A stretch of DNA of 21,946 bases. It comes from a virus. A program made the translations under genes and the position numbers. The notes beneath the pieces are model-generated. The model did not search any database, was not told where the DNA came from, and saw only the letters and a list, made by a program, of their open reading frames with translations. The DNA lies in IMG/VR virus record IMGVR_UViG_3300046011_011804, positions 1 through 21,946 of that record. The stretch is one strand, 5' to 3'. This document shows, piece by piece, positions 6,232 through 18,170 of the stretch. Each line of letters starts with the position of its first letter. Position 1 is the first letter of the stretch.

Positions 6232-7780
6232 CACTGTAAGCATAAATATTCGCGGCAACCGCAAAGGGTTGCGCCGCGAGCTTGATGGCGCTCAAAAAGA
6301 TGTATCAAACTTTGCAAAGCGCAGTACTCAGGCCCTCTCCCCTTTACAAGACGCAGGTAAAAAGCTTGGCAAGTCACTCGTAGGCCCATTTGCAGGCCTT
6401 GCTGGTGGTGTCGCTATTGTTGCGGCTGCTCGAAACATAATGAATTTCGACAGAAGCCTGACAAGGCTTGCCATCAATGGCCGTCTGACAAAAAAAGAGC
6501 AATTCGAGTTGCGCGAAGAAATTGGAAAGCTCGGGATTGAGTTCGGCAAGTCACGAGAGCATGTGCTTGGCGGGTTGGATGCCATCGTTACACGCACCGG
6601 TGACATTAAATTCGCCAGAGATGTAATGAAGGATCTTGCCGTTGCCTCTACTGCTACCGGAACAAGCATGGAAGATCTCGGCGCGCTCGCATCTAACCTG
6701 CAACAGAAACTTGCGATCGGTCCAGAAGGGCTTGCAGAGGCACTCAATATTATCAACGTCCAGGGAAAAGAAGGCGCATTCACACTCGAAAAAATGGCTT
6801 CATTGGGAGAGCGCCTTTTTGCTGCGTCCGGGCGATTGGGCATGAAAGGTGCTGGTGACCTGAGAAAGTATGGTGCCCTTATTCAAATGTCAAAAATGGG
6901 CACTGGTAGCGAAGAACAGGCTACAACAGCAATGGAAAGAGTGCTTGACGCGATAATAGACAAACAGGACGTTATACGCAAAAAAGCAAAGTTTGATGTT
7001 TTTTCAAACAGATCTCTCCAGCAGTTCAAAAGTATCGATAAGATAGTAAAAGGCATTATTATAGGAACTGGTGGAAATGAAAAGGATCTTGGCGATATTT
7101 TTGGGGCTGAAGGTGTTCGCGGAATCGCCGAATTGGCGCGCTTATACAGGGAGACAAAGGGCTTTGATTTCTTTGACAAGCTCACAAATTCAGATGCAGG
7201 TCGAGCAAACGAAACGTTGAACGATGCTGCCCGTGCCATGGAAGACAGTGCATCAAAATTTGATAAATTGATGGCTATTCTTGAAAACGCATCTGACAAG
7301 CTCCTGGTCAAATCTATTGAAAACCTTAGCGTAGCTCTAACCGAACTGATGAACGACCCGCGAAAAGTCGATGATTTCATTGAGGATATTGGTAATATTG
7401 GGGCTGCTATTGCTGGACTGGTCAAAATTGTTGGCGGTGCCCTTGGTGTTCTTGAAAAATTTTGGAGCGTTGTTGACAAAATTGAAACTGCAGGAGACCC
7501 AAACTCATATAGTCCAACGAAAGGGGTCACTTCTGGGCGTGGTAATCGGCTCCACAAAAACGACTTGGCGAGACAGATGCGTATCGCTAACCGTGGGAAA
7601 GGTGTTTTTGATAGGGCCATTGTAAGTGGAAAAGTTGCTGAGAATCCTGGCTCAAAATCCGAGCAAGTTGTAAACATCACAGTATCCGATACGATGCAGG
7701 TCAGAGCGAGTGCTACTTCAAACGGCAGCACCTCAGCGGTCAGGGTAAACAAAAAAGACAACTCCTTTTTGGTGAAATAA
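6218..7780 (+). CDS. Tail tape measure protein (short)
   Basis: A 520-residue protein directly after the chaperone pair, with the usual overlap. It begins with Lys/Arg-rich sequence, then has a hydrophobic stretch near residues 53-72 (GPFAGLAGGVAIVAAA) and a second one near 389-411 (IGAAIAGLVKIVGGALGVL). Between them it is mostly charged helix (for example REEIGKLGIEFGKSREHVLG). This is the usual form of tape measures, which set tail length and may enter the membrane during DNA entry. At about 1.5 angstrom per residue a tail near 78 nm is expected, shorter than that of lambda. The start at 6218 has AAGGTGG at 6202-6208. Confidence 0.85.
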   Translation: MSKNNTVSINIRGNRKGLRRELDGAQKDVSNFAKRSTQALSPLQDAGKKLGKSLVGPFAGLAGGVAIVAAARNIMNFDRSLTRLAINGRLTKKEQFELREEIGKLGIEFGKSREHVLGGLDAIVTRTGDIKFARDVMKDLAVASTATGTSMEDLGALASNLQQKLAIGPEGLAEALNIINVQGKEGAFTLEKMASLGERLFAASGRLGMKGAGDLRKYGALIQMSKMGTGSEEQATTAMERVLDAIIDKQDVIRKKAKFDVFSNRSLQQFKSIDKIVKGIIIGTGGNEKDLGDIFGAEGVRGIAELARLYRETKGFDFFDKLTNSDAGRANETLNDAARAMEDSASKFDKLMAILENASDKLLVKSIENLSVALTELMNDPRKVDDFIEDIGNIGAAIAGLVKIVGGALGVLEKFWSVVDKIETAGDPNSYSPTKGVTSGRGNRLHKNDLARQMRIANRGKGVFDRAIVSGKVAENPGSKSEQVVNITVSDTMQVRASATSNGSTSAVRVNKKDNSFLVK

Positions 7781-7784
7781 AAAA

Positions 7785-9044
7785 ATGCCTCCTCTTTACA
7801 GTGCACGAATCGCCAATTTCGATATCGACCTCCTTGAGATTCAGGATTCATATTCCAGGGCGATTGCCAAATATGAGTTCCCCCTGAGGGATGGTGCGGC
7901 GCTCGATGATATGGGCGGGAGCGCACGGTCAATCAGGTTCGCAGCATTCTTTTTCAATGAGAAATATTCGCGGCACACCGAGTTCGTTGATCTGATAAAT
8001 CAAGACGCTGTAATTCAGTTAACGCACCCAAAGTATGGGATTTTAAACGGCAGAATCACAGATTGGACCGTCCTGCATGACGACCGGGACGAGTACTGCC
8101 AAATCGATATCACCTTTGTTGAGCAGATTATCGGCGAAGAGCTCCAGTATGTGCACAACGTCCTCAGCGCAGCAGAGGGGGCCTTTCTGGCAACCCAGCT
8201 GCAGGCGAAGGATTCCTTTGCTGCTAAGGCTGCAGTTGAGCTTGGCAGCGATGGGCCGGGGGTGCTAACACGGGCTATCACAGGGACCACAAGCCTTGTC
8301 TCTCAGCTGGGCGGTGGAATATCGAGCAAGGCGCGGGCGTTTGTAAAGCGCATCGATGGAGCTGTTCGGGCCGTTGAGGGGCTTTCCCTTGCGGTCCAGA
8401 ATCCCGCAACATCTATCATCACCGCCATTGATTACGGCACAAGCCTACCGGGGAGAGTGGTGGGGGCCGTAACTCAGTGCATCGAGCGCTATGCCGAGGC
8501 AGCCGCCAGCGTTGCATCTTCCCCCGCACAGATGGTTGCCAACCTTAAAAACTCAATCACAGCAATTAAGGCAGCCGCAAGCGGGCTTGAAGATCAGGTT
8601 GGAAAAATCGGTGCATCCTACGCAGCGCTCAAAGTCGCGCAGGTGTTCGCCGAAGATGAAACCGCGCGGGCACAGGCCGGCACGCTGCAGCCATCATTTG
8701 ACATCGAGGGGAACTACATCGCGCAGGACCAGCCCCCGGCAACGCTTACCGTCAATGACCTTGAGGCTGCGGCCTATGCTTCGCGCCAGATGCTTGATGA
8801 GGCGTACCAGGCAGACCGTACTATGACGGGGTTGAAAGAGGCTGGGCTTGCCCTACAGAGGCACGTTGATGTGGTTAAGGGGTCGCGCGAACGGCTAAAA
8901 AAAATAACCATCACCCACCCCACCCCACTGCACGCAATATGCCTGCAAAACGGACTGCCATACTCAGATGCAGAGCGCATCATTAAAATAAACGATATCC
9001 CAGACCCAGCGCGCGTTGAAGGGGAGATCCTGATCTATGCGTGA
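7785..9044 (+). CDS. Mu gpN-like DNA circularisation / tail protein
   Basis: A 419-residue protein whose N-terminal 130 residues match the DNA_circ_N domain found in Mu gpN and relatives: RAIAKYEFPLRDGAALDDMG, then RSIRFAAFFF and a run of short strands with LINQDAVIQLTHPKYGILNG. The middle (about 140-350) is Ala-rich helix. The end has ITHPTPLHAICLQNGLPYSD and NDIPDPARVEGEILIYA, a pattern also seen in small LysM-like baseplate modules. In Mu, N is a tail/baseplate protein that enters the cell with the DNA. The stop overlaps the next start by 8 bases. Confidence 0.8.
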   Translation: MPPLYSARIANFDIDLLEIQDSYSRAIAKYEFPLRDGAALDDMGGSARSIRFAAFFFNEKYSRHTEFVDLINQDAVIQLTHPKYGILNGRITDWTVLHDDRDEYCQIDITFVEQIIGEELQYVHNVLSAAEGAFLATQLQAKDSFAAKAAVELGSDGPGVLTRAITGTTSLVSQLGGGISSKARAFVKRIDGAVRAVEGLSLAVQNPATSIITAIDYGTSLPGRVVGAVTQCIERYAEAAASVASSPAQMVANLKNSITAIKAAASGLEDQVGKIGASYAALKVAQVFAEDETARAQAGTLQPSFDIEGNYIAQDQPPATLTVNDLEAAAYASRQMLDEAYQADRTMTGLKEAGLALQRHVDVVKGSRERLKKITITHPTPLHAICLQNGLPYSDAERIIKINDIPDPARVEGEILIYA

Positions 9045-10047
9045 TTCAGTGCAGCTGCAAATCGGTTCGGTGACCATCGAGAACTTTTTGAGCTACTCGA
9101 TAGCATCGGACATCTACACCGCTGACGACGCATTTAGCGTTGAGCTGGGGAGGCCTGAATTTGAGGTGCCGCTTGGGTCAGAGTGCACCCTGAAAGTAAA
9201 CCGTGTGCCGGTGATGAGCGGCATCGTTGATTCGGTAACAAAGTCATATTCAAAATCTGGGCGGTCCTATTCCATCGCCGGGCGCGATTTGATGTCGCTT
9301 GCGGTGGATAGCTATTGCGAGAATTTCATTTCTCTCGCTGGAAAGCGGTTGGCCGACATTGCCAAATCGCTTTTTGAAACGGTCCCAATCCTTAATCGAA
9401 AACCGATCGTTTATGATGCCGGAATAGAGCGGCTTTCTGTCCCCGCCACCTTTGAGGCGGTATCCCCTGGGCAAACGGTTTTTCAGGTGCTTCGCGACAT
9501 CGCAACCAGCCGCGGGGTGTTGTTTTATTGCCGCCCGGATGGGACCATCGTTTTCAGCCGCCCCAAAAGCAGCGGGTCCGCTCCTTTTTCAGTGCGGGTA
9601 ACCGCGCAGGGCAACGAGTCGGGGGTTATCGAGGGGCGGGCGGTGCGCAGCTGTGCGCAGCACTACCGAAAGATCATCGTTATCGGGCAAAAGCAGGGGG
9701 GGGAGGATGATTCGCCAGAGGATATCAACATTTTGGAAACCATCACCGACGATGAAGCCCCAATTGCAAAGACAATTGTGGTGACCACAACCGATGGCGA
9801 AGCGCCACAAAAGATTGGTGCTGTGATAAAAGAGCAGAATCGCTACCAGGCCTATCAATACGAATACACCTTTGCAGGGCACACTCAGCGGGGGCACGTT
9901 TGGAGGCCGGAGATGTTTTGTCAGGTGTTCGATGATGAGCTTGGTATTCAGCAGCCGCTCTATATCTACGGCTGCGACTACAGCATGAGCAAAAGCGATG
10001 GCGTGAGAACAACCGTCCGCATGGGCCTCCCAGGGGTGATGGTATGA
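9037..10047 (+). CDS. Baseplate hub protein (Mu gpP/gp44-like, phage late-control D family)
   Basis: A 336-residue beta-rich protein between the N-like gene and the spike gene, as in Mu where gp44 (P) forms the baseplate hub ring. The N-terminal part carries strands such as SVELGRPEFEVPLGSECTLKV and VPVMSGIVDSVTKSYSKSG followed by YSIAGRDLMSLAVDS, a combination typical of gpD/gp27-type hub proteins in which two barrels follow one another. Later the stretch FQVLRDIATSRGVLFYCRPDG is also characteristic. Its product should form a trimer under the spike. The start has GGGGAGA at 9021-9027. It overlaps the following gene by four bases (ATGA). Confidence 0.88.
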   Translation: MRDSVQLQIGSVTIENFLSYSIASDIYTADDAFSVELGRPEFEVPLGSECTLKVNRVPVMSGIVDSVTKSYSKSGRSYSIAGRDLMSLAVDSYCENFISLAGKRLADIAKSLFETVPILNRKPIVYDAGIERLSVPATFEAVSPGQTVFQVLRDIATSRGVLFYCRPDGTIVFSRPKSSGSAPFSVRVTAQGNESGVIEGRAVRSCAQHYRKIIVIGQKQGGEDDSPEDINILETITDDEAPIAKTIVVTTTDGEAPQKIGAVIKEQNRYQAYQYEYTFAGHTQRGHVWRPEMFCQVFDDELGIQQPLYIYGCDYSMSKSDGVRTTVRMGLPGVMV

Positions 10048-10922: not shown

Positions 10923-11882
10923 ATGCCAATCGCCATTCGGACATTCGACCAGATCTTAAACGGGATTCTCATTGATTACCAAAATCAAATCCCTGATATC
11001 GACATCGCCCAGGGGACGCTCACCTACATAAAGGCTGCGGTGCTTGCCTCTACCATTTGGAATCTTGAGCGGATGCAAAAATACATCGCTGATGAGCGCT
11101 GGCCAGATGGAACCAGCCGGGCAGCCCTTGAGCGGTGGTGCTCAGTTTATGGGGTTGCTCGCAACAGCGGCGAGGGCGATGCCTCTCTTTTATCGCGCCT
11201 CCTATCGCGCATCCAGCAGCCACCAGCGGGCGGGAATCGATACGATTGGCCGCGATGGGCCAAAGAAGTTTCAGTCCAGCACACCACCAACGGAACAACA
11301 TTCCACGAGTTGGTGCAGAACGCCTATGTTTATGAGAACCTGCGCGGTAGCGGGACGGTAACGGTTGTTATAACCGCAGATCTTTCAAACGCTCCAGCCT
11401 GGGTTTCCGGCGTTGCGTATTCTGATGGCGAGTTCGTGGTTTATAACTCAAAGCCATACCTGTGCATCCAGACCCACTCTACCGCACAAATCCCCGCATC
11501 GAGCGAGGATTATTGGGAGGATTACGAACAGGGGGCATCTGATGACCTGCTGAATGAGATCACCGACTATCTTGATACCCGTAGACCGCTTGGCGTGTGG
11601 GATTACATCGTGTTGGCACCGGTGCGGAAAACTCAGAGTGTGTCCATCCAGATTTTTGGCACCGACGCGGTTGAGGATGTGATTCGAGACGAAATTGAAA
11701 GCTACATGAAAAACATTGAGCCTGGAAAACCTCTTTACAGATCACAGTTGGTCGCGATTGCGGTGGAGAACGGCGCAGATAACGCTATTGTGAATAGTCC
11801 GTTTGATGATGTTACCTGTGAGGCTGGACCGTTGATATTCGAGCGCATTTGGCCGGGCACATTAACCGTTGTGAGTGTGTGA
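10923..11882 (+). CDS. Baseplate wedge protein (Mu gp47/J-like) with inserted carbohydrate-binding-like module
   Basis: A 319-residue protein. Residues 1-150 resemble the N-terminus of gp47/gpJ wedge proteins (FDQILNGILIDYQNQIPDID, then SAALERW-like and VYGVARNSGEGDASLLSRLL), and residues 204-319 resume with DLLNEITDYLDTRRPLGVW and VQSVSIQIFG-type strands. Between them, about 156-203 (bases 11388-11531), lies a short unit rich in aromatic residues: W160-x-x-G-x-x-Y166-x-x-G, then V-x-Y174-x-x-K-x-Y-x-C181, H185 and a final W198. This is the pattern of CBM5/12 (ChtBD3-like) sugar-binding modules. AAGGGG at 10911-10916 precedes the start by 6 bases. The baseplate role is firm and the sugar-binding role is inferred. 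Confidence 0.83.
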   Translation: MPIAIRTFDQILNGILIDYQNQIPDIDIAQGTLTYIKAAVLASTIWNLERMQKYIADERWPDGTSRAALERWCSVYGVARNSGEGDASLLSRLLSRIQQPPAGGNRYDWPRWAKEVSVQHTTNGTTFHELVQNAYVYENLRGSGTVTVVITADLSNAPAWVSGVAYSDGEFVVYNSKPYLCIQTHSTAQIPASSEDYWEDYEQGASDDLLNEITDYLDTRRPLGVWDYIVLAPVRKTQSVSIQIFGTDAVEDVIRDEIESYMKNIEPGKPLYRSQLVAIAVENGADNAIVNSPFDDVTCEAGPLIFERIWPGTLTVVSV

Positions 11883-11884
11883 TT

Positions 11885-12436
11885 ATGAAAATACTGCAGC
11901 TGTGGTTTGGAGAGAAAGCGCCTGAGCACGTTTTGGAGTGCATGCGGCACAATCAGGCTCTCGGGCATGAATACTGCTTATGCTCTCACTCTAATTTTTT
12001 GGATGCAGAGCGGTTTGTGCGCATCGATGATGCGTTACAGGAGAGTGGCATTGCTGAGGTTGTGGCATCAATGCGCAGAGGGAACAAACTACTGGCTACC
12101 GTTGATTTGCTGCGCATCTGGTTTGCGGCGCGCGAGCGGCTTTTGTATCTGGATGCTGATTGTAAGCTTGTAGGTGACCTTGGGGACCTTGGCGACGATA
12201 CCTGGTTTGTTCGTGATAAGCGAACGGGGCTGATGCTTGACTATTACGCCATCTATAGTGGAGACTCTTCTTTTTGCGCGGAGATGCTTGGGGATATACT
12301 CAAACACATGACTGCTGTCGGTGGTTACATGGATTTTGAGTGTTATCGATATATCAACCGCAACGCGCAAGCGGTGAAGCATTTCGACCCGGCAAACTTT
12401 ATGCACCTTGAGAATCGGTCATGGAGGCGCGGATGA
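11885..12436 (+). CDS. GT32-like glycosyltransferase in the tail locus
   Basis: A 183-residue protein starting MKILQLWFGEKAPEH, close to the start of GT32/GT8-type sugar transferases. Three of their landmarks are present in order: ATVDLLRIWFAARERLLYLD with D74 and R77, the metal-binding D90-A91-D92 in LDADCKLV, and a C-terminal H174-x5-W180 (MHLENRSW). It should therefore add a sugar from a nucleotide sugar, with Mn or Mg. It lacks a signal peptide or membrane helix, so it would act in the cytoplasm. The ATG at 11885 was taken rather than a far upstream in-frame GTG at 11849, which would overlap gp47. The ribosome site is weak, so translation may be coupled to gp47, 2 bases upstream. Substrate unknown: the tail protein next door or host surface sugars are both possible. 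Confidence 0.72.
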   Translation: MKILQLWFGEKAPEHVLECMRHNQALGHEYCLCSHSNFLDAERFVRIDDALQESGIAEVVASMRRGNKLLATVDLLRIWFAARERLLYLDADCKLVGDLGDLGDDTWFVRDKRTGLMLDYYAIYSGDSSFCAEMLGDILKHMTAVGGYMDFECYRYINRNAQAVKHFDPANFMHLENRSWRRG

Positions 12437-13347
12437 GCACTTATTACTTTGATATATCTCCAAATTATGACCCTCCAGAGATAACGGCACCATATTATCA
12501 CTATCTGAACAAGGCCGACCCTGGTTGTTGGTATGACCTGTTAGAGTTCACCAGTGCGGACGCAGATAATACAACGGACATCGTGATTTACGGGTTCCGG
12601 GATATTACCGAGCCTGTTTCGTTCGTTTATAATGGCGGTGGCTGGGACGAACAGTTTTTGGGAATAAAATTCAATGGTTGGGACAGGGCAGACGGATTTG
12701 CACCATGGGGGATAACGGGGAGCTATGTTCTATTTCCGACCGATGCAAAGGTAACTCGATTTTGCACTGATGATGCCATTGTAAATAATCACTATTTTGA
12801 CACAACGCTAAAGTGCTGCTATCTCAAAAGCGAATCGCCAATAATTTTGAACTCGGTTATATCTGCATTCGGATGCACAGTTTCAGCTCCAGTGTTTGAT
12901 CTCGGATATTCAGAAACGGACGATGAACAATACTCATTTGTTGGGTGCGTTTTTAAGGTTGCTGCGTTCAGCTCGTTGTTTGCGCAGGGGTGGGTCACCG
13001 GGGGAATCTCCTTTCGTGATTGCGTTTTCATTGGCACTACTCAAGGTGATGTTGAGACAGATCTGAGCAATGTGCAAAACCTTGAGATCACAAACTGCAC
13101 ATTTGTTCCTGCGGTTTCGTTTGCATTCCCTGATGCCAGCAACGTTTCGGCGCTGTCACTGGATTACAACAAATCCGGTCTGGCAAAAGTGGCGCCTGAA
13201 ACATTTGCCACCGAAGAGTATGATTTTGGATTCTCGGATTCTTACCGGGACGGATACGGTGCGTGGTTTTTTTCGATACCACCAGACAATGCGCACTTTC
13301 CAAAGCGCAACGAAATTAACATGCTTTTCCCCAACAGGTATCGGTGA
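12433..13347 (+). CDS. Probable beta-helix tail surface protein (unrecognised family)
   Basis: A 304-residue acidic protein, beginning MSTYYFDISPNYDPPEI, which I do not recognise. From about residue 125 to 245 it has repeated short rungs of alternating hydrophobic residues with FVGCVFKVAAF, ISFRDCVFIGTT and LEITNCTFVPA, the look of a right-handed parallel beta-helix as in phage tailspikes. An N-terminal domain of about 110 residues is rich in Asp, Tyr and Trp. The start at 12433 overlaps the glycosyltransferase stop (ATGA) and follows TGGAGG at 12422-12427 by 5 bases, so the two genes are tightly coupled. It could be a side fibre or spike, or the substrate of the glycosyltransferase. Function is inference. 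Confidence 0.6.
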   Translation: MSTYYFDISPNYDPPEITAPYYHYLNKADPGCWYDLLEFTSADADNTTDIVIYGFRDITEPVSFVYNGGGWDEQFLGIKFNGWDRADGFAPWGITGSYVLFPTDAKVTRFCTDDAIVNNHYFDTTLKCCYLKSESPIILNSVISAFGCTVSAPVFDLGYSETDDEQYSFVGCVFKVAAFSSLFAQGWVTGGISFRDCVFIGTTQGDVETDLSNVQNLEITNCTFVPAVSFAFPDASNVSALSLDYNKSGLAKVAPETFATEEYDFGFSDSYRDGYGAWFFSIPPDNAHFPKRNEINMLFPNRYR

Positions 13348-13350
13348 TAT

Positions 13351-13869
13351 ATGTTCCATTTTGGGCAGACATTCAACGCTGAGGTTGATGTTGAGGCAAG
13401 GGCCTTGCTGATTGTTGATGGTTTGGCAAAAACGCTGCGCGATGAGTTATTCCCCGATGGCGCAACCGATGCAGGCACCATGGAAGATTGGGAGAGGCTT
13501 GTCGGGATAAACGGCGGTTCCAGCGTCACAAGCGAGGGCGATCGGCGCAATGCAATTATCGCGAGCCTCAGAGCAACCAACGCCATAACGGTTGCGGCAT
13601 TTGAGAGCATCGCCGGGGGGTTTGGATATACGATTGGTCCAGCCGGAACGCCAGGCAAACACCTGCGCATTGTTGAGGGGAACCAGTGGCCAGCCTTTCG
13701 CGCGGGAATATCAAAGGCGGGCGACAAGGTGTATTCCTCGTACGCGGGAGACTACACCCCCTACACCGTGCGGGTATATGGAACTGACGTAACGACAAAC
13801 TCAGAGTTGCAGAGAATTTTTAATAAGGCGAAACCAGCGGGCATAACCTTTATTTTTGTCAACGAATAG
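13351..13869 (+). CDS. Mu gp48-like tail protein (DUF2313)
   Basis: A 172-residue protein with an acidic helical N-terminus and the signature TMEDWERLVGI at residues 43-53, then EGDRRNAIIASLRATNAITVA, found in Mu gp48/YmfQ (DUF2313). Its C-terminal half (SYAGDYTPYTVRVYGTD and KAKPAGITFIFVNE) ends as family members do. Related tail proteins link the baseplate to fibres. Normally it follows gp47 directly. Here two genes of a different kind have come between them. The ATG at 13351 is 3 bases after the previous stop, so translation is probably coupled. Confidence 0.85.
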   Translation: MFHFGQTFNAEVDVEARALLIVDGLAKTLRDELFPDGATDAGTMEDWERLVGINGGSSVTSEGDRRNAIIASLRATNAITVAAFESIAGGFGYTIGPAGTPGKHLRIVEGNQWPAFRAGISKAGDKVYSSYAGDYTPYTVRVYGTDVTTNSELQRIFNKAKPAGITFIFVNE

Positions 13870-13877
13870 GAATTATC

Positions 13878-14681
13878 ATGTTAGCAAAAACGACTTTTAT
13901 TGACGGCACAACCGTTGAACCTGCATGGCTAAACAGCATCCCCGCCCGAAATTGCGAGCCACTGATAAATTATATAGGTGGCATGGATATGTTTTTTAGC
14001 AGTGCTCCCAGTGCTGTTATTGGTGTTCGACCAGGGGTTGCTACCTGCTGGGGGTCGTCGGAATATATTGCTCTAAGTAATACCTGTTATAAAAATATTG
14101 AAAACACATGGGTTGCTGGAAGCGGAGTAGGAGGCAGGCCTCCGGCGGTTGAGCTTCAATGGAATCGCTTCTACCATGTTTTTGTAATATGCAACACGAC
14201 AACTGGGGTAGTAGATTGCGGCTTCGATACAAGTATTTCCGCTAATAATTTGCTTCAATATAGCGGGTACAACCTGCATAGGAGGGTTGGCTCAGTGTAT
14301 TATGCTGGCAGTTCGCTTAAAATATTGCCGTTTTTGCAGTACGGCGACATGGTGATCTATAACTTCCTTGGTATCGATAATCTGGTTGCTCTGCCTGCAG
14401 ACAACGTACAGCGCTTTCGCCATACTTATTCACCACCCTGCAAGACAACTCTGATATGCAAGACGACTGGGTTAGTTGGCGGGTCCGCCCATGTATGGCC
14501 TTGTGGGATTGGAGAAGGCGCAAACTTTGCGACTTCGGAGCTTTATGCCATCGCGGCGCCATTTAGTTATGCGTTAGTTGCGACTGATTATGATGGGTAT
14601 ATTAACGTTAGGCGCAATGCCTCCGTCACATCATGCCAACTGAGTATACTTGGCTACTATGACCGTCGGGTTTTAGAGTAA
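13878..14681 (+). CDS. Short tail fibre protein
   Basis: A 267-residue protein that begins TTFIDGTTVEPAWLNSI, an attachment motif found at the start of many phage fibre proteins. The central block (about residues 90-170), with WNRFYHVFVI, VDCGFDTSISANNLL, RVGSVYYAGS and LPFLQYGDM, is a widespread fibre C-terminal beta domain. There are no collagen-like or long repeated shaft regions, so it should be stubby. No fibre assembly chaperone follows. The start has AGGA at 13868-13871. As the last gene of the rightward structural run it is the expected place for the host-range determinant. Confidence 0.82.
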   Translation: MLAKTTFIDGTTVEPAWLNSIPARNCEPLINYIGGMDMFFSSAPSAVIGVRPGVATCWGSSEYIALSNTCYKNIENTWVAGSGVGGRPPAVELQWNRFYHVFVICNTTTGVVDCGFDTSISANNLLQYSGYNLHRRVGSVYYAGSSLKILPFLQYGDMVIYNFLGIDNLVALPADNVQRFRHTYSPPCKTTLICKTTGLVGGSAHVWPCGIGEGANFATSELYAIAAPFSYALVATDYDGYINVRRNASVTSCQLSILGYYDRRVLE

Positions 14682-15245: not shown

Positions 15246-15674
15246 CTATAGGACCGTTTTGGGCTCGGTCCTGGTCTGCTCCTTCTCCCCCTTCCTCTCG
15301 TGCCCACCCACCGGGTTCCTCAGTCCCGTGCGATACCCATGTTGTTTTGATGAGAGCGCGACCTCCGTGCGCTCAAGTACCTTATCGATCCTCTCTAACA
15401 TGTCCTTATACATCCGGTAGGCCATATCGGCTTGGCCACGGTAGTAATCGGTTGAGTTTTCGTCTACAGAATCAACCGCAATTACCGCATCAGGTTGTTT
15501 TTGCGGACCTATAAAGCCAACACTTTCAAGTTTAAACATCATTCTCTCAGAAATACTATTCCTTTTTATCGCACTTTGCACAGCTTGTTGAGAGACACCA
15601 AGTTTTTTTGCGAACTCAATCTGTGTAAGCGAGTGTTGTTCCATCAATGAAATCAACAACTTACGAGGCTCCAT
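15246..15674 (-). CDS. CI-type phage repressor (HTH XRE family), no S24 peptidase domain
   Basis: A 142-residue protein with an N-terminal helix-turn-helix (about residues 5-50): LISLMEQHSLTQIEFAKKLG followed by VSQQAVQSAIKR. The rest is a polar linker, a helix at about 75-107 (DMAYRMYKDMLERIDKVLER) that could form a coiled-coil dimer, and a basic tail. There is no LexA/S24 autocleavage region, so RecA-driven cleavage is not expected. The start at 15674 was chosen because GGGGGTGA lies about 5 bases upstream. A longer reading from 15773 would cover the promoter region. It is divergent from the early operon, the classic position of a lysogeny repressor. Its own promoter was not resolved. Confidence 0.78.
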   Translation of the reverse strand: MEPRKLLISLMEQHSLTQIEFAKKLGVSQQAVQSAIKRNSISERMMFKLESVGFIGPQKQPDAVIAVDSVDENSTDYYRGQADMAYRMYKDMLERIDKVLERTEVALSSKQHGYRTGLRNPVGGHERKGEKEQTRTEPKTVL

Positions 15675-15695
15675 TGTTTCACCCCCTAAAAAATA

Positions 15696-15773
15696 ACCGC
15701 AATTACTGCAATTGCTATTGACATGGCGTTGTATTTGCGGTATATTTTCATTGTGTGCAGCAATTACATGCAA
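15696..15773. promoter_or_regulatory. Operator-like repeats of the lysogeny switch
   Basis: Between the repressor and the early genes there are repeated elements: GCAATTAC at 15699-15706 and 15760-15767, both followed by a TGCAA (with one extra base in the second), the palindrome GCAATTGC at 15708-15715, and an inverted pair ACCGCAA (15696-15702) and TTGCGGT (15735-15741). The last one overlaps the rightward -10 element. This is the layout of operators for the repressor and a Cro-like partner. Binding is inferred. No footprint can be drawn from sequence alone. Confidence 0.55.
15718..15746 (+). promoter_or_regulatory. Rightward early promoter (PR-like)
   Basis: TTGACA at 15718-15723 (perfect -35), a 17-base spacer, and TATATT at 15741-15746 (5 of 6 matches to -10). 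This is a near-consensus sigma-70 promoter. Transcription would start near 15753 and run through the early operon, leaving about 155 untranslated bases before the first strongly supported gene. Operator-like repeats overlap it, so the repressor should shut it. Confidence 0.8.
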
Positions 15774-15909
15774 ACAAAGATAAGTGATGCAACTCTCATT
15801 ATATCAAAAAACGCTCAGTGAGTTAAACAGCAATATGCAATCTAAACAGCGCAAGCAAAGTACCAGATGTGGTTGTGAATCCATTAAAACAAACGCGGGA
15901 GGTGAGTGT

Positions 15910-16092
15910 ATGAAACCGAAAGCTGAAGGTGTCCAGAAGCCAGAGCGGGCCAGAACTAACCTGATGGTAACCAGGGCGGTGAATCGCAGAATCCGAATTA
16001 TCTGCGCATTCAACGACAAAACGGCAAACCAAGTGATCGAGGAGATGCTTAATCAAATTCATCCTGAAACATCATTTCAAACAGCGGCATAA
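15910..16092 (+). CDS. Small ribbon-helix-helix DNA-binding protein (Arc/CopG type)
   Basis: A 60-residue protein and the first gene of the early operon. RTNLMVTRAVNRRIRIICAF at about residues 15-34 fits the short strand and first helix of a ribbon-helix-helix fold, and NDKTANQVIEEMLNQI the second helix. Such proteins bind DNA as dimers and often act as phage regulators, so a Cro- or Arc-like role is plausible. The ATG at 15910 was picked because GGAGGTGA at 15898-15905 is near perfect. The same frame is open upstream to starts at 15787 and 15835 without a good site. Function is inferred from fold and position. Confidence 0.65.
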   Translation: MKPKAEGVQKPERARTNLMVTRAVNRRIRIICAFNDKTANQVIEEMLNQIHPETSFQTAA

Positions 16093-16104
16093 GGGGGAAT
16101 GGCG

Positions 16105-16335
16105 ATGTTAGCAGTTGCAGGGCGTATCGGGGGCGGGGTGGAATGCACGGCAACATGCCGGGCCGACATCGACGGCCTTAAAATCTATTTCGACTGGACT
16201 CCGGGGGACCCCAACACGGGGACCTGTCAGGGCTTCGACATCCACGAAGTTTTGGACGCTCGGGGGCGCTCGGTCAATCTCCCAGAGCGGGAGATAATCA
16301 AAAAGCTGATTCAGTACAAACAGAAAGCGGCCTGA
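16105..16335 (+). CDS. Unrecognised small early protein
   Basis: A 76-residue protein, MLAVAGRIGGGVECTATCRA, which I do not recognise. It has a C14-x3-C18 pair, a third Cys (C41), a stretch of acidic and aromatic residues (LKIYFDWTPGD at about 25-35) and a Lys-rich C-terminal helix (EIIKKLIQYKQKAA). The start at 16105 was chosen over ATG 16099 because AAGGGGG at 16091-16097 gives a 7-base gap to it but only 1 base to the other. It lies between the RHH regulator and the exonuclease, where phages often carry small host-modifying or recombination-accessory proteins. Confidence 0.55.
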   Translation: MLAVAGRIGGGVECTATCRADIDGLKIYFDWTPGDPNTGTCQGFDIHEVLDARGRSVNLPEREIIKKLIQYKQKAA

Positions 16336-16356
16336 GAGTTCGCCCTCCCAGACCGC
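16327..16356 (+). terminator. Imperfect hairpin before the exonuclease gene
   Basis: GCGGCCTGAGAG (16327-16338) pairs with CTCCCAGACCGC (16345-16356) with 10 of 12 matches and a 6-base loop. It overlaps the stop codon of the preceding gene. No T run follows, so it may be an attenuator or processing site rather than a strong terminator. Confidence 0.3.
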
Positions 16357-16391
16357 CAATCACAAACAACCTAACAGAAGGAAAAATAATC

Positions 16392-17342
16392 ATGGGAACG
16401 CAGGTAGCACAATTAAGCGCATGGAATCGCACTCGCGGTGTGAAGGCTTTGCGCCTGGTCGAGACCACAAATTTAAGCCGTGAGGACTGGCTGCAGGTCC
16501 GCAGGGCAGGTATCGGTGGCTCTGATATTGCCGGAATACTGGGGATCTCCCCATTCTCCACCCCCCTTGAAGTTTACGCCGAAAAGGTGATGGAAATCCA
16601 GTCGGAAGAGTCTGAGGCAATGCACTGGGGCAACATTCTTGAGCCGGTCATTGCCAGTGAATTTGCTTTGCGCCACCCTGAGTATCGGGTTGAGGCGGTG
16701 AACGCTGTTTTGCAAGACCAGGATGTACCGCACTTCCTCACCAACGTTGACCGACTCCTGATCGGCAGCGAGGCGAATGCAATCCTTGAGGTAAAAAACA
16801 CCTCAGAGTACCTCCGCAAGCTCTGGGAGGACGAAAACACCCCTGACTACTACATGACACAGGCTCAGTGGTACATGGGCGTTGCTGGCCTTCCCTGCGC
16901 ATGGGTGGCGGTGCTCATCGGTGGGAACAAGTACGTCGAGCGCTACATCAAGCGAGATGATGATTTGATTGCCATCCTACGCAATCGCGCTGATGAGTTC
17001 TGGCAAAACAATGTGCTGGCAGGTGTTGCTCCAGAGCCAACAGCAAAAGATAAAGACATCCTCAACAAAATCTTTACCAGCACCTACGGCGAGACGGTCG
17101 ATTTGCCGGAAGGCACGGCAGCGCTTTGCACAGACCTCCTAAACATAAACGAGAAGATCAAAGATGGAACCCAGCTCAAAGAATACTTCCAGAATCGTTT
17201 GAAGCACCTGCTCGGGAATGTAGAGGTTGGGTATGTCAGCGATCGGTTTGAGGTTTACTGGGCTCCCGATAAAAACGGCACCCGCAGATTCAGGTTAAAA
17301 GAAGTTGTGTCTAAAACTACCGAAACCACAAAAACAGCATAA
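16392..17342 (+). CDS. YqaJ-family phage recombination exonuclease
   Basis: A 316-residue protein with the YqaJ/lambda-exonuclease signature: RRAGIGGSDIAGILG at residues 37-51, the acidic E84 in WGNILEP, D120 in LTNVDRLL, and E133-x-K135 in AILEVKNTS, together forming a PD-(D/E)xK active site. QAQWYMGVAGL (157-167) is the usual substrate helix. It digests one strand of double-stranded ends to give 3' overhangs for the annealase encoded directly after it. The RBS is AAGGA just before the ATG. The pair exonuclease + RecT is common in phages. All expected active-site residues are visible. Confidence 0.92.
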   Translation: MGTQVAQLSAWNRTRGVKALRLVETTNLSREDWLQVRRAGIGGSDIAGILGISPFSTPLEVYAEKVMEIQSEESEAMHWGNILEPVIASEFALRHPEYRVEAVNAVLQDQDVPHFLTNVDRLLIGSEANAILEVKNTSEYLRKLWEDENTPDYYMTQAQWYMGVAGLPCAWVAVLIGGNKYVERYIKRDDDLIAILRNRADEFWQNNVLAGVAPEPTAKDKDILNKIFTSTYGETVDLPEGTAALCTDLLNINEKIKDGTQLKEYFQNRLKHLLGNVEVGYVSDRFEVYWAPDKNGTRRFRLKEVVSKTTETTKTA

Positions 17343-17354
17343 GGGGGTCCTATC

Positions 17355-18170
17355 ATGGCTAAAACAGGAGCAGAACTCGCGGCACGTCTCACGACAGCAC
17401 CGGTAGCAGCAGACCCGGTGAAGACCATCGCCAATCTTCTGGAAACAATGCGTCCACAGTTCGCCGCGGCACTTCCCAGTATTATGAAGCCTGAGCGCCT
17501 GATTCGTTTGGCGGTTACCGAACTTCGGAAAAACCCCAAGCTCATGGAATGTTCAACACCTTCGTTTATCGGGGCAATCATGCAGTGCGCCCAAACGGGG
17601 TTGGAACCTGGTATTGATGGGCAAGCCTATCTGGTGCCGTACAAGGGAGAATGTACGTTTATCATAGGGTACAAGGGCTTTGTCTCCCTCATGTATCGCA
17701 ACCCCAAGGTGAAAAAGGTTTTCGCGAATTTCGTGTGTGAGAATGACCAATTCGAGTACAGCTATGGCATAGACGAAAAGTTCAACCACAAACCAGCTTT
17801 TCAGGACCGTGGTGAGGTGATCTACTACTATGCCTATGTTAAGCTGGACGGCGGCGAATCGACCTATCTGGTAATGAGTAAGCCCGATGTAATTGCCCAT
17901 GCCAAGAAGTACTCCCCAGCTTACAATCGGCCAGGTAGCCCATGGCAGGATGATTTTGACTCAATGGCGATGAAAACCTGTCTTCGTCAGCTGGAGCGGT
18001 GGATACCTAAATCAGTCGAGTTTCGCGACACGGCTTCGCGGGATGAAACAGTGAGAACAGACATTGAAAACGATGTTTATTCATCGCCAATCACCGCGAA
18101 CTCAGAAGTTGTCGGCCAGCGTGTTGACCAAGACGGCATCGATAATAGCCAAGAGCCTTTTGTAGAGTAA
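17355..18170 (+). CDS. recT: RecT single-strand annealing protein
   Basis: A 271-residue protein close in length to E. coli Rac RecT (269). Family landmarks are clear: ALPSIMKPERLIRLAVTELRKN in the N-terminal part, GAIMQCAQTGLEPGIDGQAY and YKGECTFIIGYKGFVSLMYR in the core, then SPWQDDFDSMAMKTCLRQLE near residues 195-215. The C-terminal tail is acidic (EVVGQRVDQDGID and on). It coats single strands and anneals homologous ones, acting with the YqaJ nuclease, which ends 12 bases upstream. The AAGGGGG ribosome site (17341-17347) is excellent. No SSB gene follows. Confidence 0.95.
   Translation: MAKTGAELAARLTTAPVAADPVKTIANLLETMRPQFAAALPSIMKPERLIRLAVTELRKNPKLMECSTPSFIGAIMQCAQTGLEPGIDGQAYLVPYKGECTFIIGYKGFVSLMYRNPKVKKVFANFVCENDQFEYSYGIDEKFNHKPAFQDRGEVIYYYAYVKLDGGESTYLVMSKPDVIAHAKKYSPAYNRPGSPWQDDFDSMAMKTCLRQLERWIPKSVEFRDTASRDETVRTDIENDVYSSPITANSEVVGQRVDQDGIDNSQEPFVE

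Follow-up and report, generated by a model that had tools for sequence, protein, structure and literature searches.

A Probable GT32-Type Glycosyltransferase and a Putative Beta-Helix Protein Inserted Between the Baseplate Genes gp47 and gp48 of a Mu-Type Phage Tail

In a 21.9-kb IMG/VR virus record of an uncultured phage, the whole of which is called the window in the following, two overlapping genes are inserted between the baseplate genes gp47 and gp48 of a Mu-type contractile tail. The first gene very probably encodes a GT-A enzyme of GT32 type, as judged via an intermediate homologue, while the second gene is likely to encode a protein containing a beta-helix. We tentatively propose that the enzyme is expressed late and glycosylates a virion surface protein, the likeliest acceptor being its coupled partner, so that both genes would form a baseplate decoration cassette.

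Genomic context of the insert

The window contains a head module consisting of protease, scaffold and major head protein, as well as a contractile tail of the Mu type comprising Gp36, sheath, tape measure, DNA-circularisation protein, gp44 hub, gp45, gp46, gp47 and gp48, and genes for Mu transposition were not recognised there. Pfam matches identify the two genes flanking the insert as Baseplate_J (E 9e-20) and Phage_Mu_Gp48 (E 9.5e-10). The enzyme gene begins 2 nt past the gp47 stop codon. The partner reading frame offers two in-frame ATG codons, at 12421 and 12433, of which the latter is most likely the start, as it is closely preceded by GGAGG and gives an ATGA overlap with the TGA of the enzyme gene, both features being retained in the other allele of the locus. 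Coordinates and overlap confirm the first-pass annotation in that two coupled genes are wedged between gp47 and gp48. The fibre-like protein encoded behind gp48 gave no family match below E 0.08 in Pfam or PHROGs. On the 3' side of the tail, 15246–18170 holds an HTH_3 regulator (15246–15773, minus strand) and a recombination module with YqaJ and RecT, and an IstB/DnaA-like ATPase is encoded as well. Relatives of this RecT are spread over many hosts, so it does not allow a host assignment.

Table 1. Features at and around the gp47/gp48 junction of the window.
Feature	Position	Strand	Basis
gp47, Baseplate_J protein with CBM5/12-like insert	10923..11882	+	Pfam; insert by alignment with relatives; context
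Probable compact GT32-type (GT-A) glycosyltransferase, 183 aa	11885..12436	+	Homology to E. coli phages, motifs, dN/dS 0.126
D-A-D, residues 90–92, D-x-D motif	12152..12160	+	Translation; same in both alleles and in the homologues of the E. coli phages
ATGA stop/start overlap, putative translational coupling	12433..12436	+	Sequence; retained in the other allele
Probable beta-helix surface protein, 304 aa (308 aa if start at 12421)	12433..13347	+	Rungs, dN/dS 0.175; without family match
gp48, Phage_Mu_Gp48 baseplate wedge protein	13351..13869	+	Pfam, PHROGs; context
Short fibre-like protein, 267 aa, possible second acceptor	13878..14681	+	Follows gp48, most diverged module gene (73 % identity); context

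To place the pair in a wider context, the gp47/gp48 junction was surveyed in relatives found via the hub protein and in Mu-type phage records, giving 65 loci outside the clade of the window with a detectable gp48; as some of these are close relatives, the loci are not independent. The two genes overlap or lie at most 55 nt apart in 63 of the 65 loci, an 11-nt overlap being commonest, which bears out the earlier view that they normally lie side by side. As the junction is closed in these 63 loci, the pair is an insertion and stands outside the usual tail core, just as the first-pass annotation had assumed. No insertion mechanism can be read from the repeats nearby, which are short and imperfect and fail to flank the insert.

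One further locus (L079) has a 200-nt gap between gp47 and gp48, the plus strand of which holds no open reading frame of at least 90 aa. Another one (the IMG/VR phage L028) carries an independent insert of two extra reading frames at 6409–9590. The first encodes a Gp80-like fibre protein (PF23140, 8e-8), while the second encodes 889 aa up to the contig end, with a Polysacc_deac_1 domain (1.6e-6) followed by a gp48 domain (1.8e-21) and an N-terminus that reads like a beta-helix, its profile support being a weak DUF1565 match. Like the pair in the window, this insert places two reading frames exactly at the junction and combines a beta-helix-like protein with a carbohydrate-active domain. It differs in consisting of a fibre and a deacetylase/gp48 protein, and the sequences are not detectably related (Smith-Waterman score of 40 between the two beta-helix-like proteins, with a shuffle mean of 36). 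Due to this independent insert at the same position, the gp47/gp48 junction may accommodate host-glycan modules. Two more contigs, in which other reading frames follow gp47 and gp48 was not recognised within reach (L112:9942–11706 and L117:10292–14992), may carry junction inserts as well. At L037:9614–11164, the reading frame matching gp46 measures 516 aa versus about 120 aa usually, and here a further baseplate gene has apparently acquired additional domains.

Identity and conservation of the two proteins

HMMER searches of the enzyme against Pfam, PHROGs and NCBIfam gave no convincing family, and the PF04488 profile, with its curated cut-off, was not matched at E values up to 10. A permissive tblastn search revealed a relative in the two E. 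coli phages IME392 and EP_H11 (E 0.01 and 0.08), which is a 263-aa 'hypothetical protein' with 27 % identity to the enzyme. One-to-one comparison gave 2e-10 in BLASTP and 9e-7 in hhalign, and the Smith-Waterman score of 103 over about 150 residues compares to 30 ± 4.5 for shuffled sequences (P about 6e-10). The relative itself scores 1.8e-4 and 22.6 bits against PF04488 Gly_transf_sug, the cut-off being 23, with Caps_synth as second weak profile match. Furthermore, the enzyme displays the motifs LQLWFG, DLLR (74–77), YLDAD (88–92, with D90-A-D92) and H174-x5-W180 in the order expected and without difference between the alleles, among them all three noted previously, namely D-x-D, LLR and the final H-x5-W. 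The DLLR helix is followed by the DxD behind a hydrophobic strand, as expected for GT32 type, and both align with the homologue. Pairwise homology, an intermediate close to PF04488 and the ordered motifs together make a GT-A fold of GT32 type likely, whereby the earlier label of a GT32-like enzyme holds with regard to motifs and intermediate homology, but not as a direct PF04488 match.

The homologues in EP_H11 (WBU87766) and IME392 (AXY86097) share the N-terminal QLW-x-G, the DxLR helix and Y-x-D-A-D with the enzyme of the window, whereas the latter is about 80 residues shorter, missing them on the C-terminal side, is encoded in a tail locus and has the partner gene beside it. Both homologues are PF04488-like 'hypothetical' genes located upstream of helicase genes (L042:3986–4777 in EP_H11, L041:5986–6777 in IME392) and outside any tail locus. 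Two scans of genome contigs with the enzyme, a search of viral contigs with the E. coli phage homologue as query and plasmid searches gave no further relatives, and sequence searches of the PDB returned nothing meaningful. In the complete records of both E. coli phages, the partner alignment retrieved nothing, while the enzyme is retrieved with its own alignment, of which these relatives form part. A general coupling of enzyme and adhesin is not supported by these two phages, in which the enzyme occurs without a detectable partner, an outcome that the first-pass annotation had named as counter-evidence, although it is seen only at 27 % identity; on this comparison, the enzyme family is not bound to this partner, while the pairing within the clade is unbroken. 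A distant and fast-evolving partner could have been missed in the E. coli phages.

For the partner, neither a profile match in Pfam, PHROGs and NCBIfam nor a relative outside the clade was detected. It contains three [FI]xxCxF motifs at residues 169, 194 and 219 (counted from ATG 12433) with a spacing of exactly 25, which resembles the cysteine ladder of a parallel beta-helix, and shuffled sequences rarely reach this motif count (P 0.0002). Of the beta-helix-like rungs proposed previously, the evenly spaced motifs are present, but hydropathy does not follow a 25-residue period, its autocorrelation at lag 25 being not significant. The AlphaFold model obtained from a two-row alignment shows low-confidence strands at the rungs at a mean pLDDT of 31. 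GC content at third codon positions is 47 % for the partner and 44 % for the fibre gene, compared to 55 % for the enzyme and 55–63 % for most tail genes, except for the tape-measure gene with 43 %. No other proteins of the module diverge as strongly as partner and fibre (86 % and 73 % identity). Such GC3 and divergence would be in keeping with a surface protein that contacts hosts, but do not prove it.

The pair is retained in all three IMG/VR relatives found (L002, L003 and L004), and within the clade enzyme and partner always occur together. Both proteins of L002 are identical to those of the window, while L003 and L004 share the other allele, in which the enzyme is 91 % and the partner 86 % identical. 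Both inserted genes are under purifying selection between the two alleles, on the basis of about 47 substitutions in the enzyme and 131 in the partner, and their dN/dS values (Table 1) are similar to those of gp47 (0.147) and gp48 (0.207). Chance reading frames are ruled out by these values of 0.13 and 0.18.

Proposed function and alternative readings

Promoter-like sites in the insert region show no excess over shuffled sequences, which together with the 2-nt distance to gp47 and the ATGA overlap suggests late co-expression of the inserted genes with the baseplate. During virion assembly, the first gene product, a small and soluble glycosyltransferase, would then most likely take a nucleotide-sugar from the host cell and transfer its sugar moiety to a protein on the virion surface. 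The first candidate acceptor would be the translationally coupled beta-helix protein, probably a baseplate spike or adhesin, followed by the fibre-like protein or gp47. We infer late co-expression, virion location and acceptor from gene position only, the activity of the enzyme and the transferred sugar being putative, too. Against such a decoration speak the missing direct profile matches of both proteins, their poor structure models, the partnerless homologues in the E. coli phages and the shortening of the enzyme by about 80 residues, which leaves its activity unassured. The gp47 protein contains a CBM5/12-like carbohydrate-binding insert at 11397–11486 (residues 159–188, 2.2e-6), and in the alignment some relatives have another insert at this site, others none. 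Counting both inserted genes, the baseplate has three possible carbohydrate-related features.

The enzyme might instead alter, late in infection, a glycan of the host surface or a precursor of it, for instance to keep progeny from re-adsorbing to debris or to exclude rivals, with the beta-helix protein being an independent spike. This is unlikely, although PF04488 and Caps_synth, the weak matches of the homologue, are families frequent in surface-polysaccharide synthesis, and the E. coli phage homologue is located outside any tail locus. Known seroconversion clusters include membrane partners, whereas the enzyme is a soluble protein of 183 aa without such partners, and its gene lies in a late baseplate operon and not beside the HTH_3 regulator. 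Alternatively, the enzyme domain may have become part of the virion as a glycosyltransferase-derived, lectin-like and sugar-binding baseplate decoration with little or no catalysis. The shortened C-terminal side, the other carbohydrate-binding insert in gp47 and the structural appearance of the L028 insert genes would suit such a role, but both alleles agree in the DxD and in the remaining motifs of catalytic type, which a purely structural function would not require. We regard this reading as quite unlikely.

That the first gene does not encode a glycosyltransferase at all, but an unrelated accessory protein of superficial resemblance, appears decidedly unlikely. The direct profile match is missing, and the AlphaFold model from a two-row alignment is of low confidence (mean pLDDT 47.6) without a significant Foldseek match; on the other hand, there is an alignment of about 150 residues at the shuffle P given above, the order of the motifs is as expected, and the intermediate lies near the PF04488 cut-off. 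We regard it as very improbable that the enzyme acts elsewhere, for instance on a host target in the cytoplasm or on modified phage DNA, or that the tail carries it as cargo. The helicase genes near the E. coli phage homologue would be in line with another target, and glycosyltransferases are known as cargo of tail-derived particles (PMC4518317). The enzyme gene, however, lies among those of the baseplate, and the scanned reading frames of the window, which is a fragment, include no recognised gene for base modification.

Glycosylation of the phage's own virion, our preferred reading, has precedent in mycobacteriophages, where phage enzymes glycosylate capsid and tail-tube proteins (Che8, Corndog and Myrna; PMC12363180). 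Virion modification is demonstrated in those phages, whereas it is only inferred for the window. In both cases a phage-encoded glycosyltransferase is proposed to act on the phage's own virion, and unlike in the mycobacteriophages, the enzyme gene described here stands among those of the baseplate and is coupled to the gene of a probable adhesin. The most far-reaching version, in which a dedicated glycosyltransferase would modify its own coupled beta-helix adhesin in a contractile-tail baseplate, receptor binding or shielding would need the phage-made sugar, and the gp47/gp48 junction would dock such modules, appears doubtful when taken as a whole. While virion glycosylation by phage enzymes is already known, a baseplate enzyme translationally coupled to an adhesin would, if true, link glycosylation with host recognition. 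The junction also offers a straightforward genomic address at which to look for more tail decoration modules.
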